From contig SXUP01000042.1 in NCBI GenBank assembly GCA_005790505.1, positions 62,001-126,000 on the forward strand: DNA of 64,000 bases, in the 5' to 3' direction. Of this stretch, positions 32,274-39,739 are shown in pieces (positions within the stretch are counted from its first letter, which is position 1; the number at the start of each line of letters is the position of its first letter). A program made the translations under genes and the position numbers. The notes beneath the pieces are model-generated. The model had not been told where the DNA came from, made no database searches, and worked only from the letters and a program-made list of their open reading frames with translations. This DNA is from Actinomycetota bacterium. Its GTDB lineage: Bacteria > Actinomycetota > Acidimicrobiia > Acidimicrobiales > Ilumatobacteraceae.

Positions 32274-33488
<1,215 letters not shown>

Positions 33489-33523: not shown

Positions 33524-33573
33524 TATAATTTGACTTACGCTATCAAGATGTTGTGGTCGTATCATGGAGAACT

Positions 33574-34263
33574 ATGAGTGGTCCGCATCGCAGTGCGCTG
33601 AAGGGCAAGCACAGTATGTCTTTTGTAGGGCTTGGGGGTGCCTTGGCTCTCTCTTTACTGGGTTGCGCCGAATCTGGGGCGTCGCAAGCAAAGTTTGTAC
33701 TGCGTGGTGCCGACGAAGTTCAGGTGATGTCCGCAGCCCAAGTGGCAGCACTTCGTCAACCAATTGTCGATCCTGCTGACGCATCGAAGCCAAATGAAGC
33801 AGGGGAGACCAGCAGCGAAACAGTTCCGCTCAATGCTGATAATCGTGCCCCCGAAGTAAAACTTTTCGCGGCCTATCAAAAATTCAATGCCTGCCTAAAA
33901 GCGGACGGTTTCAAGATTGAAGGTAATCTTCAAGATCCCAAAAATCCTGCGTTTCAAAACAAGGAGTATGTGGCCTCGTTAACGAAGTGTGCAGCACGCA
34001 CAGATATTCTAAACGTGGTGCGCGCTACACAAGAAGCGACATCAAAGCTGACGCCGGAAGAAGTAAAGGGCAGAAATGAAATCTTCAAAGCGCTTTCTGA
34101 ATGTCTGAAACAGCGTGGCTGGACGGTTGAACTGTCGGTGAACAGCATCGGACTTCTGCAGCCCCAGCAGTTTCGTGCGGCAGATGGAACTCTCAATGAG
34201 CGAGATCTAGACCAGTGCTTGACGGAAACTGGCGTGAATACAAGTGACCCAGGGGGGCCATAG
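33574..34263 (+). CDS. Secreted lipoprotein with duplicated Cys-pair domain
   Basis: 229 residues with a basic N-terminus, hydrophobic core and lipobox LLGC, so anchored outside the cytoplasmic membrane. Two related units follow: YQKFNACLKADGF..TKCAARTD and FKALSECLKQRGW..LDQCLTETG, each with a pair of cysteines that could form disulfides. Similar short Cys-pair helical lipoproteins accompany MacB-type exporters in actinobacteria. ATG 33574 has GGAG 4 bases upstream. Its TAG shares one base with the GTG of the adaptor gene, so it is coupled to the exporter. Precise function unknown. Confidence 0.75.
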   Translation: MSGPHRSALKGKHSMSFVGLGGALALSLLGCAESGASQAKFVLRGADEVQVMSAAQVAALRQPIVDPADASKPNEAGETSSETVPLNADNRAPEVKLFAAYQKFNACLKADGFKIEGNLQDPKNPAFQNKEYVASLTKCAARTDILNVVRATQEATSKLTPEEVKGRNEIFKALSECLKQRGWTVELSVNSIGLLQPQQFRAADGTLNERDLDQCLTETGVNTSDPGGP

Positions 34264-36446
34264 TGAGTAAGCGCAATATTTTGTCGGCGTTTGCCGTAAT
34301 CGCGTTAGTTGTATCTGCGGTTTTTATCGGCAGATCGTTGGGAGGGACCTCGTCTGGATCTTCAACAGGTTTACTCATTGTCCCTCGCCAGGTTGAGCGT
34401 CGTTCCCTTGAGGATGTATTGACAGTGACGGGGGAAATAAGACGTGATGAAACAAAAAAAATTAATTCACCCGTTGACGGTCAGGTAAGTGATGTCGCCG
34501 TGAGCGATGGTGCAACAGTAAACGCAGGAGACACAATTTTTTCTCTGGATGGGCGCGACTCCGTCGCGGTCAAGGGGAAGTTCGCCTTTTATCGGTCTCT
34601 AGATGTTGGTGATGTGGGTCCAGACGTAAAGCAACTTGAAGATGTTTTGATTTCGGCTGGGACGGGGTTGAAGAAATCAGATCAGCTTTACACAGAAGAA
34701 ACTCGAACTGCTTTGGGCAAATGGCAAGCAATTCACGCTTATCCGGCAGCCGTGGCTTCATCTGAAAAAACAATCACGGTGTCTCTGGGGCAAAATCAAG
34801 CAGGTTATTCAATAGGCAAGTACAACTCCATCGCATATGTCATCAGTCCATCAGCAAAAGCAACTTCAATCGGAACAGGACCAGGATCGGCACGACGCCT
34901 CCCGCGCGTTGCCCCGACGATCTCAATAGCGGTGAATCGTACGAGCGTGCTTGAAGGTGAATCGGTTATTTTTACTGTGACTGCGTCGGCTGCACCGGCG
35001 GCAGATCTGACGATAAATCTAAATGTTGGTGGCTCAAGCACAGGTGGCGTGAGTGCTGTAAAAAATAACGCCGACTATGCCACCGTCAATAACACAGTCG
35101 TGATACCTGCCGGAACAACTACCGCAAGCATTACGAGGCAGATTTTTACCGACTCGGTTATCGAAGACGAAGAAGATCTTCAGATTTCCATTGGGCAACA
35201 GAGTTTTGGTGGCTCTAACGAGGCATATACACTCGGGTCGACCAGTGCTGCCCGCGTTGTGATTCCGGCAAATGGCTCCGACCTTATTCGCACACTTACG
35301 ATTGAAGCGTCTACAGATAAAGTTGCCGAGGGCCGTAGCGTCACGTTCACGGTCAAAACAACCGTGAAGTCGAACCAGACTCTTGATTTCTACGTTGCTA
35401 CTGCGGGTGTTGCCGTGTCTGGAACTGACTACGTAAAAATTAATCAAGATGATTTACAGATCGATGCGAATAATACGACAATGACGTTCAGTATTGATGT
35501 GCGCGCAGATGATGTCGTTGAGACTGATGAAGTGTTCACCGTTTCATTGGTTGCAGATCCCAACTACTCAGCGAGTGCTCAGCCATATATCGTGGGTGCT
35601 CCTGCGTCAGCATCCGTCACGATTGACTCCGAGGACCTTCCTACACTCAGTTTGAACGGTGGGGGAATCGTGAAAAAAGGCACATCTACAAGTTTTGTCA
35701 TTTCCGCGGACGAAGCAGTCTCGGCTGACACCTCTGTGACGTATCAGTTGTCTGGCTCTGGGAAAGCCGGAGACGACTACGGAGTGCTGAGCGGAGTAGC
35801 AGTTTTGAAAAAAGGAAAAACGTCGGTGAAGGTCAGGATTGACACTCTTAATAACGGTGTAATTTTTAAACCCAGCGACATGTTGGTCGCCAATTGGCCA
35901 TCGCGAATCGGCACCCTTAACGTAAAGGCAGGAGAATTTGTTCTTCTCGGCAAGACGCTATTTAATCTAACTGAGCCCGTCTTTACGGTTGTAATGAGCG
36001 TGAGTCCTACAGATCGTGCCAAGTTGTCGTTGGACATGAATGTCAAAGTAAATTTCAACGCAGGTGAAAGCATTCTGGACGGCAAAATAAGTGAGCTTGA
36101 TGCGTCGCCAACAGTTGACGGACAGGGTAACTCTGCCTATGAAGGCAAAGTTTTAGTCAAGTCCGATCTGGAGTCTGTTGATGGGGCATCGGTGTCAATT
36201 GATGTGATTCTGGAGAAAAAAGACAATGTACTTGCTGTGCCAGTCGCAGCGGTTTTACGTGCGTCTGACGCCGACGAAGTCCGAGTCGTAAATGATAAAG
36301 GGACAATTTCACGAGTCAAAGTAAAGATTGGCCTGATTGATGGTGAGTGGGCAGAGATAGTTGAAGGCCTTACTGGCACTGAACTCGTGGTCATTGATGT
36401 TGACCCTGCCGCAGACAAACCCAACACGGTGACTCAAGACTCCTGA
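34263..36446 (+). CDS. Membrane-fusion (MacA-like) adaptor with PG-binding and Calx-beta repeats
   Basis: 727 residues, anchored by one N-terminal membrane segment (8-25). Lipoyl/HlyD-like strand pair about 60-100 (INSPVDGQVSDV), peptidoglycan-binding type 1 domain 108-160 (VGDVGPDVKQLEDVL, TRTALGKWQ), then three Calx-beta-like repeats about 217-335, 344-455 and 460-530 (VLEGESVIFTVT, VAEGRSVTFTVK; acidic DxxxExxE segments), then the returning lipoyl and beta-barrel parts 550-715 (LNVKAGEFVLLGKTLF, VPVAAVLR). Usual adaptors have a coiled-coil hairpin or nothing at the insertion point. Next to ABC ATPase and permease. GTG start. Confidence 0.8.
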   Translation: MSKRNILSAFAVIALVVSAVFIGRSLGGTSSGSSTGLLIVPRQVERRSLEDVLTVTGEIRRDETKKINSPVDGQVSDVAVSDGATVNAGDTIFSLDGRDSVAVKGKFAFYRSLDVGDVGPDVKQLEDVLISAGTGLKKSDQLYTEETRTALGKWQAIHAYPAAVASSEKTITVSLGQNQAGYSIGKYNSIAYVISPSAKATSIGTGPGSARRLPRVAPTISIAVNRTSVLEGESVIFTVTASAAPAADLTINLNVGGSSTGGVSAVKNNADYATVNNTVVIPAGTTTASITRQIFTDSVIEDEEDLQISIGQQSFGGSNEAYTLGSTSAARVVIPANGSDLIRTLTIEASTDKVAEGRSVTFTVKTTVKSNQTLDFYVATAGVAVSGTDYVKINQDDLQIDANNTTMTFSIDVRADDVVETDEVFTVSLVADPNYSASAQPYIVGAPASASVTIDSEDLPTLSLNGGGIVKKGTSTSFVISADEAVSADTSVTYQLSGSGKAGDDYGVLSGVAVLKKGKTSVKVRIDTLNNGVIFKPSDMLVANWPSRIGTLNVKAGEFVLLGKTLFNLTEPVFTVVMSVSPTDRAKLSLDMNVKVNFNAGESILDGKISELDASPTVDGQGNSAYEGKVLVKSDLESVDGASVSIDVILEKKDNVLAVPVAAVLRASDADEVRVVNDKGTISRVKVKIGLIDGEWAEIVEGLTGTELVVIDVDPAADKPNTVTQDS

Positions 36447-36450
36447 CGCC

Positions 36451-37152
36451 ATGACAGCAGAAGCGGTAATGGAACTGGCGAATGTTTCGCGGGTTTACGG
36501 TCAAGGAGAAGCCACAGTTTTTGCGTTGCGTAATGTTTCGTTACGTATCCAATCAGGCGAGTTCGTTTCAATTGTCGGACCATCTGGCTCGGGTAAATCA
36601 ACCATGCTCGGTTTATTGGGTTGTCTTGATGTGCCAACGAGCGGAACAATCACTGTTTGTGGCAGAGAAATAACAGCACTTGGTGATGCCGAACGAACTG
36701 CCGTAAGAGGCAGAACGATCGGGTTTGTTTTTCAGCAGTTCCATCTGATTCCCCATCTTGACGCGGCTGGAAATGTTGAAACGGCTCTGTTGTATCGGGG
36801 ACTCAAGCCAGCAGAACGGCGTGATCGTGCCCTTGCTGCGCTCCAACAAGTTGGACTTCTTCCGCGCGCTGAGCACCGACCAGTTCAATTGTCCGGCGGA
36901 GAACAACAACGAGTGGCGCTCGCTCGCGCCCTCGTCACAGAGCCACGTATCCTGCTCGGCGACGAGCCAACTGGTGCTCTCGACACCAAGAATGCGGCAA
37001 TGGTGATGGAACTTTTCGCCAATCTTCGCTCCCCTGAACGAGCAGTAATCTTGGTGACACACGATCCGGGTGTTGCAGCAGCAGCAGATCGCAAGATCTC
37101 AATGCTTGATGGTGAGATCGTGGCTGACGAGCGCAGGGCAGTTTTGTTGTGA
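36451..37152 (+). CDS. ABC transporter ATPase, MacB/LolD type
   Basis: 233-residue ATP-binding subunit: Walker A GPSGSGKST near residue 44, Q-loop VFQQFHLIPHL, signature LSGGEQQRVALARAL, Walker B ILLGDEPTGALD and the H-loop VTHD. Such ATPases power FtsX-like permeases in lipoprotein release or in export driven by mechanotransmission. Follows the adaptor gene by 4 bases and overlaps the permease gene (GTGA). Confidence 0.92.
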   Translation: MTAEAVMELANVSRVYGQGEATVFALRNVSLRIQSGEFVSIVGPSGSGKSTMLGLLGCLDVPTSGTITVCGREITALGDAERTAVRGRTIGFVFQQFHLIPHLDAAGNVETALLYRGLKPAERRDRALAALQQVGLLPRAEHRPVQLSGGEQQRVALARALVTEPRILLGDEPTGALDTKNAAMVMELFANLRSPERAVILVTHDPGVAAAADRKISMLDGEIVADERRAVLL

Positions 37153-38336
37153 ACACGTTTAAAGATTTATTACGAGTGTCGCTGGGTGGACTTTTGGCAC
37201 GCAAAGTAAGAACCGTCCTGCTACTTCTGGGTCCAATGATTGGAGTCGCGGCAATCATTGCGGCTGTCGGTCTCACCGACAGCGCCAAAGGTGATCTCAA
37301 GCGTAAAGTCACCGAACTCGGAACCAATCTCGTGTTGGTGTCGGCGCAAAGCAGTGTTGGTCGACAGAACCCAACGCTTCCAGCAGATGCAACAGATCGT
37401 GCCAGCAAAGTCATTACGGTGGAAAAAGTCGCTGCGATAACGCAGTTGTCCAACATCGTGGTTACACCGTATGAGCGGGCCAAGTCGCAGTTTGAGACCG
37501 TACCAATCCCGGTCGTGGCGGTGGACAGCGAGTTGCCCAATGTTCTAGAGGTGCCACTAATAAGTGGTCGCTGGATAAACGCCTTTGATGAGTCTGCTAC
37601 GACCAGAGCAGCAGTAATTGGCATTGGGTTGGCGCGTGAATTCAATTACTTGCCAGGAGAAATACGAACCATCGAACTCAACGGAATCAGATATGGCGTA
37701 GTTGGAATACTTGGTGAAGTGGAGCTTGAGCCAGCATTTGACAATGCAGTGTTCGTGGCGTTTCAAGCCGCAGAACAAGACTTTGTTGATAACGACATCT
37801 TGCCGAACAAGGTTTATGTCCGTTGTGAAAATGGCACGGAAACAGAGACTGCCATCGCTTTAAAAACAGCGGTCAATTTAGGTGGGCCGCAAGAGGTTCA
37901 GACTGAGATAAAAGCGGCTGCTCTTGAACTTGCGGCGCAAAGTGATCGTCAACTTCAGCTCATCGTGGTGTCCATGGGCTTGCTGGCGGTGATTGTTGGT
38001 GGACTTGGAATCGCTAATGTAATGTCAATTTCGGTAATTCAACGTTCTGCTGAAATAGGCATTAGGAGAGCATTGGGTCATTCTCGGGCAATTATTGGTG
38101 CACAATTTATGCTCGAGTCCTTGGTAGTTGGTTTTCTAGGTGGGGTGATGGGTGTGCTTCTTGGAGTTGGTGCCATTTTTACAGGAGTGAAAATTTCTGG
38201 ATGGGTGTTTGTGCTGGCCTCGTGGCTTCCACCTGCCGGAATTGTTTTGGCGATGTTGATTTCTGTGTTGGCTGGTGTATATCCATCTGCTCGTGCTGCT
38301 CGACTTGAACCACTTGAAACGCTTCGCCTGGGCTGA
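37149..38336 (+). CDS. ABC transporter permease, FtsX/MacB type
   Basis: 395 residues: one N-terminal membrane segment (about 17-38), a large extracytoplasmic MacB-type domain (40-270), and three C-terminal segments (about 275-300, 320-345, 360-380) with the conserved IQRSAEIGIRRALGHSR loop. GTG start overlapping the ATPase stop. With the lipoprotein and adaptor it forms a complete four-gene export or envelope-signalling unit. The cargo is unknown. Confidence 0.9.
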   Translation: MNTFKDLLRVSLGGLLARKVRTVLLLLGPMIGVAAIIAAVGLTDSAKGDLKRKVTELGTNLVLVSAQSSVGRQNPTLPADATDRASKVITVEKVAAITQLSNIVVTPYERAKSQFETVPIPVVAVDSELPNVLEVPLISGRWINAFDESATTRAAVIGIGLAREFNYLPGEIRTIELNGIRYGVVGILGEVELEPAFDNAVFVAFQAAEQDFVDNDILPNKVYVRCENGTETETAIALKTAVNLGGPQEVQTEIKAAALELAAQSDRQLQLIVVSMGLLAVIVGGLGIANVMSISVIQRSAEIGIRRALGHSRAIIGAQFMLESLVVGFLGGVMGVLLGVGAIFTGVKISGWVFVLASWLPPAGIVLAMLISVLAGVYPSARAARLEPLETLRLG

Positions 38337-38398: not shown

Positions 38399-39739
38399 AT
38401 GGGCACTTTTTTAGGAAATTTTGCTTCGCTGAACACGCATGAATTGCCTCTTTGGTTTGATGGAGCCAAGTTTGGAATATTTGTCCACTGGTACTCATCA
38501 ACCGTTCCTGCATACGCACCTATCACGGATGATCCATTTACTTTGGCGCGAGAAAAAGGTGAGAGAGAAGCATTCGCTGAGAGTCCTTATTCTGAGTGGT
38601 ACTGGAATTCCCTAAATATTGAGGGATCATCAGTTTCAAAACATCACCTTGCAAAGTACGGAGACAAGCCCTACGAAGATTTCGTTCCCGAATGGCTCGA
38701 ACTGACAAAAGGATGGCAACCGGAGCGATGGGCTGAATTATTTTCTGCCTCTGGTGCGATGTATTGCGTGATGGGGACAAAGCATCACGATGGTGTTTTA
38801 CTTTGGCCGAGCGCAACTCCTAATCCCTACAAGGGGTCGGCATGGTCATCATCGCGGGACATTGTTGGGGAGTGTGCTGATGCTGTTCGATCCGAAGGAA
38901 TGCGATTTGGCTTGTATTACTCAGGCGGAATTGACTGGGCATTTCAAGGTCTCGGAATCGACAGTTGGAGAAAGTTATACGAAGCCATCCCACAAGATGA
39001 CGAGTATCACGCCTATGTAGACGCGCACTATCGGGAATTGATAAGTCGCTATAAGCCTGATGTTCTGTGGAATGACATCGGTTATCCAGGCTTTGGCGAA
39101 GGTGCCGCAGAACTAATGGCGCACTTCTATAACACCAACCCAGAGGGAGTCGTGAACGATCGCTTTGACTTTTTAGGTGTGATGGCTGGAAAATCTCATG
39201 CTGATTTCACAACACCTGAATACACAACGAAGCCTCCTCTGGGTACAAAAAAGTTTGAGGTATGTCGTGGAATTGGCACGAGTTTTGGCTACAACGAGTC
39301 TGAGGACGAATCTTCGTACGCATCATCAGCAGAACTCATTCATTTGTTAGTCAATATTGTCGCCGAGGGTGGAAACTTTTTATTGAACGTGGGTCCAATG
39401 GCAACCGGAGAAATCCCTTGGGCCCAGCAAGAGCGGTTGCTGGCGATGGGGCAGTGGCTGTCAGTTAACGGTGAGGCAATCTATTCATCATCAGTGTGTA
39501 GAAGCAATTCGCTGTTGACGTCTGAGGGAATTCCTGTTCGGCTTACTGCCGGCGTTGACGGCGCAATCTATGCAATCGTCTTGGGGCGACCTAGTAGCAA
39601 AGTTGTCCACATTGACGGTCTACCAACAGGCGATACGACGTTGCTTGGTTATGACGGTCGGCTGAATCGAATCGGCGATGACGTCATTTTGCCGTATCGC
39701 CCCGATAACACGCCAGCATTTACGTTACGCGTTGTTTGA
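38399..39739 (+). CDS. Alpha-L-fucosidase (GH29)
   Basis: Glycoside hydrolase family 29, 446 residues. WFDGAKFGIFVHW and KHHDGVLLW are family blocks, and the nucleophile Asp is in PDVLWNDIGYP. No signal peptide, so it appears cytosolic and would act on imported fucosylated oligosaccharides. The C-terminal beta-sandwich (residues about 355-446) is present. Its end overlaps the convergent SGNH gene by 15 bases. No fucose transporter or catabolic genes are adjacent, so the pathway context is missing here. Confidence 0.9.
   Translation: MGTFLGNFASLNTHELPLWFDGAKFGIFVHWYSSTVPAYAPITDDPFTLAREKGEREAFAESPYSEWYWNSLNIEGSSVSKHHLAKYGDKPYEDFVPEWLELTKGWQPERWAELFSASGAMYCVMGTKHHDGVLLWPSATPNPYKGSAWSSSRDIVGECADAVRSEGMRFGLYYSGGIDWAFQGLGIDSWRKLYEAIPQDDEYHAYVDAHYRELISRYKPDVLWNDIGYPGFGEGAAELMAHFYNTNPEGVVNDRFDFLGVMAGKSHADFTTPEYTTKPPLGTKKFEVCRGIGTSFGYNESEDESSYASSAELIHLLVNIVAEGGNFLLNVGPMATGEIPWAQQERLLAMGQWLSVNGEAIYSSSVCRSNSLLTSEGIPVRLTAGVDGAIYAIVLGRPSSKVVHIDGLPTGDTTLLGYDGRLNRIGDDVILPYRPDNTPAFTLRVV

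Follow-up and report, generated by a model that had tools for sequence, protein, structure and literature searches.

A MacA-like adaptor with a peptidoglycan-binding domain and Calx-beta repeats in a four-gene MacB-type operon of Acidimicrobiia

Introduction

The closest described systems are the MacB-type pumps of bacteria that have no outer membrane. YknXYZ of Bacillus and Spr0693-0694-0695 of Streptococcus pneumoniae each combine a lipoyl/barrel/membrane-proximal adaptor with a separate ATPase and a MacB-type permease, as does the system described here. YknX is reported to bind peptidoglycan (review PMC5985334), the Spr0693 assembly extends to about 154 A, which is close to the inner wall space (PMC5768738), and the adaptors of Gram-positive MacB-type pumps may take substrate through the space that separates the membrane from the wall (PMC5985334, PMC5768738). 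How adaptors function in bacteria that lack an outer membrane is a question still open in the field (PMC5985334). Two other groups of adaptors are relevant. BesA from Borrelia burgdorferi has no alpha-hairpin but a nine-residue loop at the hairpin site, and it serves an RND pump with a TolC-type exit duct (PMC3807786); the hairpin is therefore not universal among adaptors. The actinobacterial "peptidoglycan-binding" adaptors (PG_binding_1 + HlyD) carry a PG-binding domain within the lipoyl domain and have an adjoining ABC ATPase gene.

In this paper, an operon in a 64,000-nucleotide stretch of actinobacterial DNA (the window) is described whose adaptor differs from all of these. Spr0693 keeps the alpha-hairpin tube, whereas the window adaptor has a PG-binding domain and Calx-beta repeats instead, and a conserved lipoprotein gene sets the window system apart from YknXYZ and Spr0693-0694-0695. 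The actinobacterial PG-binding adaptors share the insertion site but are without Calx-beta, and the lipoprotein family was not detected in the short flanks searched around them. Adaptors with a PG-binding domain occur commonly among Actinobacteria, and BesA (PMC3807786) is a known adaptor that lacks the hairpin; the Calx-beta insert, the variable repeat number and the lipoprotein partner appear to be undescribed. No description of Calx-beta adaptors was found in the literature searched, in which subscription journals were thinly covered. We favor, with some confidence, the reading that in this monoderm actinobacterium the operon encodes an ABC exporter of the MacB type with four parts, in which the adaptor hairpin has been replaced by a wall-docking PG-binding and Calx-beta module and the lipoprotein is a fourth subunit.

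The operon and its genomic setting

The operon consists of the following genes:
33553..34263, + strand, lipoprotein gene, first gene of the operon
34263..36446, + strand, adaptor ORF, GTG start, 727 aa
36451..37152, + strand, ABC ATPase of the MacB/LolD type (Pfam ABC_tran)
37149..38336, + strand, permease with a MacB_PCD and an FtsX domain (Pfam MacB_PCD and FtsX)

The adaptor ORF is real and is part of a tight operon in which the stop codon of the lipoprotein gene and the start of the adaptor overlap. The order lipoprotein, adaptor, ABC ATPase and MacB/FtsX permease is conserved in nearly all complete loci. The top NCBIfam match of the ATPase is MacB, with a score below the NCBIfam cut-off, and the permease scores highest with MacB and contains the MacB core domain. 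Because some members of the MacB/FtsX superfamily, to which the permease is assigned, are not exporters (PMC5985334), we considered an FtsEX-like mechanism in which movements of the ABC pair are passed through the adaptor to the wall or to the lipoprotein and no substrate is exported. Such mechanotransmission would suit an adaptor that binds the wall and has a lipoprotein as its partner. Export is the better fit to the MacB core domain and top MacB score of the permease and to the adaptor, which has the complete lipoyl-barrel structure typical of exporters, and no wall hydrolase was recognized among the conserved operon genes; we regard mechanotransmission as unlikely.

The host genome (2.0 Mb, 66 contigs) is 97% complete and gave no match to PF02321, the family of TolC-type outer membrane factors, for which control genomes did match. 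In this respect the system differs from the tripartite MacAB-TolC pump. Among named genomes, the closest are those of actinobacterial acIV and Ilumatobacteraceae, and several of these are freshwater by title. The neighboring genes do not indicate a cargo. The flanking ORFs at 32274-33446 and 38399-39739, judged from their sequences to be thiolase-like and alpha-L-fucosidase-like, are present in near relatives and absent in distant ones, and so they offer no clue to what is transported.

The lipoprotein partner

The conserved upstream lipoprotein gene was overlooked in the preliminary description of this DNA and is the clearest addition to it. The probable start of the gene is at 33616, and the lipobox cysteine (Cys 38) is encoded at about 33664-33666. 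Cysteines 114, 146, 184 and 222 are invariant (each in 48/48 sequences) and the lipobox cysteine is present in 46/48. With an iterated profile, the lipoprotein was found beside the adaptor in all loci searched except L149, and both lipoprotein and operon are also kept in the Calx-free sister loci described below. In the phylum sample of 296 genomes, strong lipoprotein matches were confined to the three genomes that encode a Calx-bearing adaptor. The protein has no Pfam family match. Comparison with PDB sequences gave nothing convincing (best E 0.02, in the N-terminal signal and linker region), and no Foldseek match was obtained at E 0.001, the best alignment having Z 5.4 over 60 residues, which is not proof of a new fold. 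As a conserved and uncharacterized partner, the lipoprotein is of interest in its own right. Five loci (L046, L047, L048, L049 and L050) have a tandem pair of four-cysteine lipoprotein genes upstream of the adaptor.

Domain structure of the adaptor

The domain order was obtained from HMMs of the family alignment. From the N-terminus, a membrane helix (aa 10-21) is followed by these segments:
34392..34562, + strand, first lipoyl half, aa 44-100 (Pfam Biotin_lipoyl_2 at 66-96; family HMM)
34572..34757, + strand, PG_binding_1-like domain, aa 104-165 (PF01471 in homologues; 5nm7 PGBD, E 0.012)
34758..34910, + strand, conserved two-strand segment of about 50 residues and flexible linker, aa 166-216 (family HMM 'Post')
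34914..35273, + strand, Calx-beta repeat 1, aa 218-337, acidic residues E231, D271, D297, E301
35283..35633, + strand, Calx-beta repeat 2, aa 341-457, acidic residues E356, D389, D416, E420, with D458 just past the repeat
35634..35885, + strand, Calx-beta repeat 3, aa 458-541, partial, weak Pfam-level match
35886..36410, + strand, second lipoyl half, beta-barrel and membrane-proximal domain, aa 542-716 (HlyD_3, RND_mfp, MacA/BesA fold)

The adaptor has the features of the MacA type, namely a split lipoyl domain, a beta-barrel and a membrane-proximal domain, alongside genes for a MacB-type ATPase and permease. Pfam matches to Biotin_lipoyl_2 (66-96, 35.6 bits, cut-off 29.8) and HlyD_3 (542-635, 45.6 bits, cut-off 22.2) exceed their cut-offs, and RND_mfp matches at 548-712. 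The AlphaFold model has a mean pLDDT of 73.5, falling below 50 in the linker region 198-218, and a pTM of 0.35, and so single domains of the model can be used and their arrangement cannot. With VIA-align, residues 35-713 of this model aligned discontinuously to BesA (Z 15.8, the top fold match) and to MacA (Z 15.3). PF01471 matches 42/45 homologues at E 0.01 or better, and the window copy scores 16.3 bits (E 0.011) against a cut-off of 23. The Calx-beta family (PF03160) matches in two stretches with 51.9 bits (cut-off 27), the best being 350-455. The three repeats are 26-29% identical to one another, and the final strand of repeat 3 continues into the adaptor core. Repeat 2 (residues 341-458), the sole repeat searched singly, matched the first calcium-binding domain (CBD1) of CALX and NCX1 with Z 13.0-13.6 and rmsd 2.6-3.4.

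The hairpin site

The alpha-helical hairpin that normally lies between the lipoyl halves is absent, and the PG-binding domain and the Calx-beta repeats occupy its site. A profile built from seven Calx-free actinobacterial PG-binding adaptors was compared with MacA; the first lipoyl half aligned before the hairpin, the second half aligned after it, and the middle matched PG-binding structures. The Calx-free sisters L057 (346 aa) and L058 (350 aa) differ from the Calx-bearing adaptors by the absence of the repeats only. In these sisters the second lipoyl half follows the PG-binding domain after 2-3 residues, and the motif PxDxxxxxWPAR is found in them as well as in the Calx-bearing adaptors. From this junction and the common motif, the simplest reading of the sequences is that the repeats were inserted at the point where the PG-binding domain meets the second lipoyl half.

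These results bear out most of the preliminary description, which had proposed a lipoyl/beta-barrel MacA-like adaptor split at the Gram-negative hairpin site by a PG-binding module and three Calx-beta-like repeats, in a cell without a TolC partner. The Pfam scores and the MacA/BesA fold agree with the adaptor assignment, the discontinuous alignments and the Calx-free profile place the insert, and the repeats and the PG-binding module stand with the third repeat partial and the window copy of PF01471 below threshold. Its suggestion that the adaptor may brace the exporter against the wall is plausible, and its remark on a domain order not seen described agrees with the literature searched. It had named an architecture both common and already characterized as a refutation; the composite is common in Acidimicrobiia, and no characterization was found.

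Large bacterial surface proteins often contain Calx-beta repeats, long Calx-bearing ORFs without an adaptor exist in the class, and the number and make-up of the repeats in the adaptor vary, all of which would agree with repeats that decorate the cell surface, as adhesive or exchangeable elements, and take no part in the exporter itself. We consider this improbable, and the least probable of the alternatives weighed here, since the insertion always falls at precisely the same place within the lipoyl domain of a single operon-bound adaptor and the window genome has Calx-beta in this adaptor alone.

Calx-beta repeats and the calcium positions

The adaptor repeats resemble the Na/Ca exchanger CBD1 in the fold of repeat 2 and in their acidic positions, and differ in being extracytoplasmic, in being inserted in an adaptor and in having a less complete ligand set. 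By position, E356, D389, D416, E420 and D458 of repeat 2 are equivalent to NCX1 E385, D421, D447, E451 and D500; the equivalents of NCX1 D446, D498 and D499 are not kept. Each of the five repeat 2 residues is found in 19/19 relatives, as are E231, D297 and E301 of repeat 1. Repeat 3 has K472 and N531 in the window genus at positions where E and D, respectively, are each found in 16/19 relatives; this loss is confined to the three proteins of the window genus among the 19.

Across the 40 full proteins, a complete E/D/D/E site is present at least once in 31 and at least twice in 30, and therefore calcium binding by the repeats is likely in most lineages. The other nine proteins, which form one clade (support 1.0), lack any complete site and still have 4-5 repeats. 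To judge from these sequences, the repeats also have a role that is independent of calcium binding.

The preliminary description had raised the possibility of calcium sensing and had named generic Ig-like repeats without acidic calcium sites as a refutation; acidic sites are kept in repeats 1 and 2 and lost from repeat 3 in the window genus. In a sensing mechanism, calcium would shift the angle of the Calx-beta repeats as in NCX1 and so switch the exporter on or off. The E/D/D/E equivalents of the CBD1 ligands in repeats 1 and 2, nearly all of them invariant in 19 relatives, and the 31 proteins with a complete site would suit a gate of this kind. It is weakened as a general function by the loss of the repeat 3 site and above all by the nine-protein clade, which retains the architecture without complete sites. 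Calcium also changes less sharply outside the cell than in the cytosol, where the NCX domains work. We judge a calcium-sensing gate to have a low probability.

Distribution and phylogeny

The composite adaptor was found in 28/345 genomes of the class Acidimicrobiia, as judged from match ranges and domain parses. In the order sample, 34/298 genomes matched; two of these matches are Calx-free and another two are either partial or have the PG-binding part only, so that about 30 composites remain. A phylum-wide sample of 396 genomes yielded three composites, all from Acidimicrobiia, and its other matches had one element only, either an adaptor that lacks Calx-beta or a Calx-beta protein that is no adaptor. 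A scan of 84,980 species for close relatives returned nine actinobacterial matches and one partial gammaproteobacterial adaptor, and a plasmid scan returned two partial matches. Since the same domain order recurs across many genera and families, a chance fusion or an assembly artefact was ruled out.

In a tree of the common core, the Calx-bearing adaptors form a single clade (support 0.97), which is sister to L057/L058 under midpoint rooting, with a low support of 0.42 for the joining branch. Most adaptors have 3 repeats and the others have 4, 5 or 6. Together with the Calx-free sisters, this amounts to a natural series of 0, 3, 4, 5 and 6 repeats at one site of the same operon, with calcium sites kept or lost, and it makes what wall binding, spacing and calcium each contribute separable by experiment.

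Proposed arrangement of the exporter

In the four-part exporter that we favor, the lipoyl and barrel domains of the adaptor would form a ring on the permease, by analogy with MacA and Spr0693, and the PG-binding domains would dock this ring to the wall. The Calx-beta arrays may then lengthen the exit that leads from the membrane to the wall, or enclose it like a cage, and calcium in the retained sites would stiffen them. The lipoprotein would accept, deliver or regulate cargo as the fourth subunit. The PG-binding and Calx-beta module is probably mainly structural, with stiffening by calcium, and an adaptor of this kind probably serves to match the pump to the cell wall.

The lipoyl domain is joined directly by the PG-binding domain on one side and by the last repeat on the other, and the array would therefore be tethered at both ends, which favors an arch or a folded loop over a free rod with a wall-binding tip. 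We infer the arch from chain topology and rough lengths; assuming 4.5 nm per repeat and 0.36 nm per residue, the rough estimates of reach also allow a straight 3-repeat array. A length ruler with a compensating linker was rejected, as the linker before the array and the array length gave rho 0.19 and p 0.24 (40 related, non-independent sequences). More tentatively, and with rather less confidence than in the exporter itself, the operon may represent an adaptor class, so far found only in Acidimicrobiia, in which the helical exit tube gives way to a Calx-beta arch that is docked to the wall, stiffened by calcium and variable in its number of repeats, and in which a lipoprotein of a new family is obligate. 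If true, a wall-docked Calx-beta arch would be a way of fitting an ABC exporter to the wall in a cell without an outer membrane.

Variants of the adaptor

Several adaptors depart from the common form. A second PG_binding_1-like motif lies ahead of the first Calx-beta repeat in L044:3126-6503 (E 4e-4) and L045:3031-6432 (E 3e-3), in each case when searched alone and below the Pfam cut-off. The L135 adaptor (G731) is split into two overlapping ORFs of 266 and 687 aa by a frameshift or an assembly error. In L046-L050 (e.g. L046:2888-5950), the first Calx-beta repeat is separated from those that follow by a charged, repetitive and helix-like stretch of 160-320 aa which, by eye, looks like a coiled coil.
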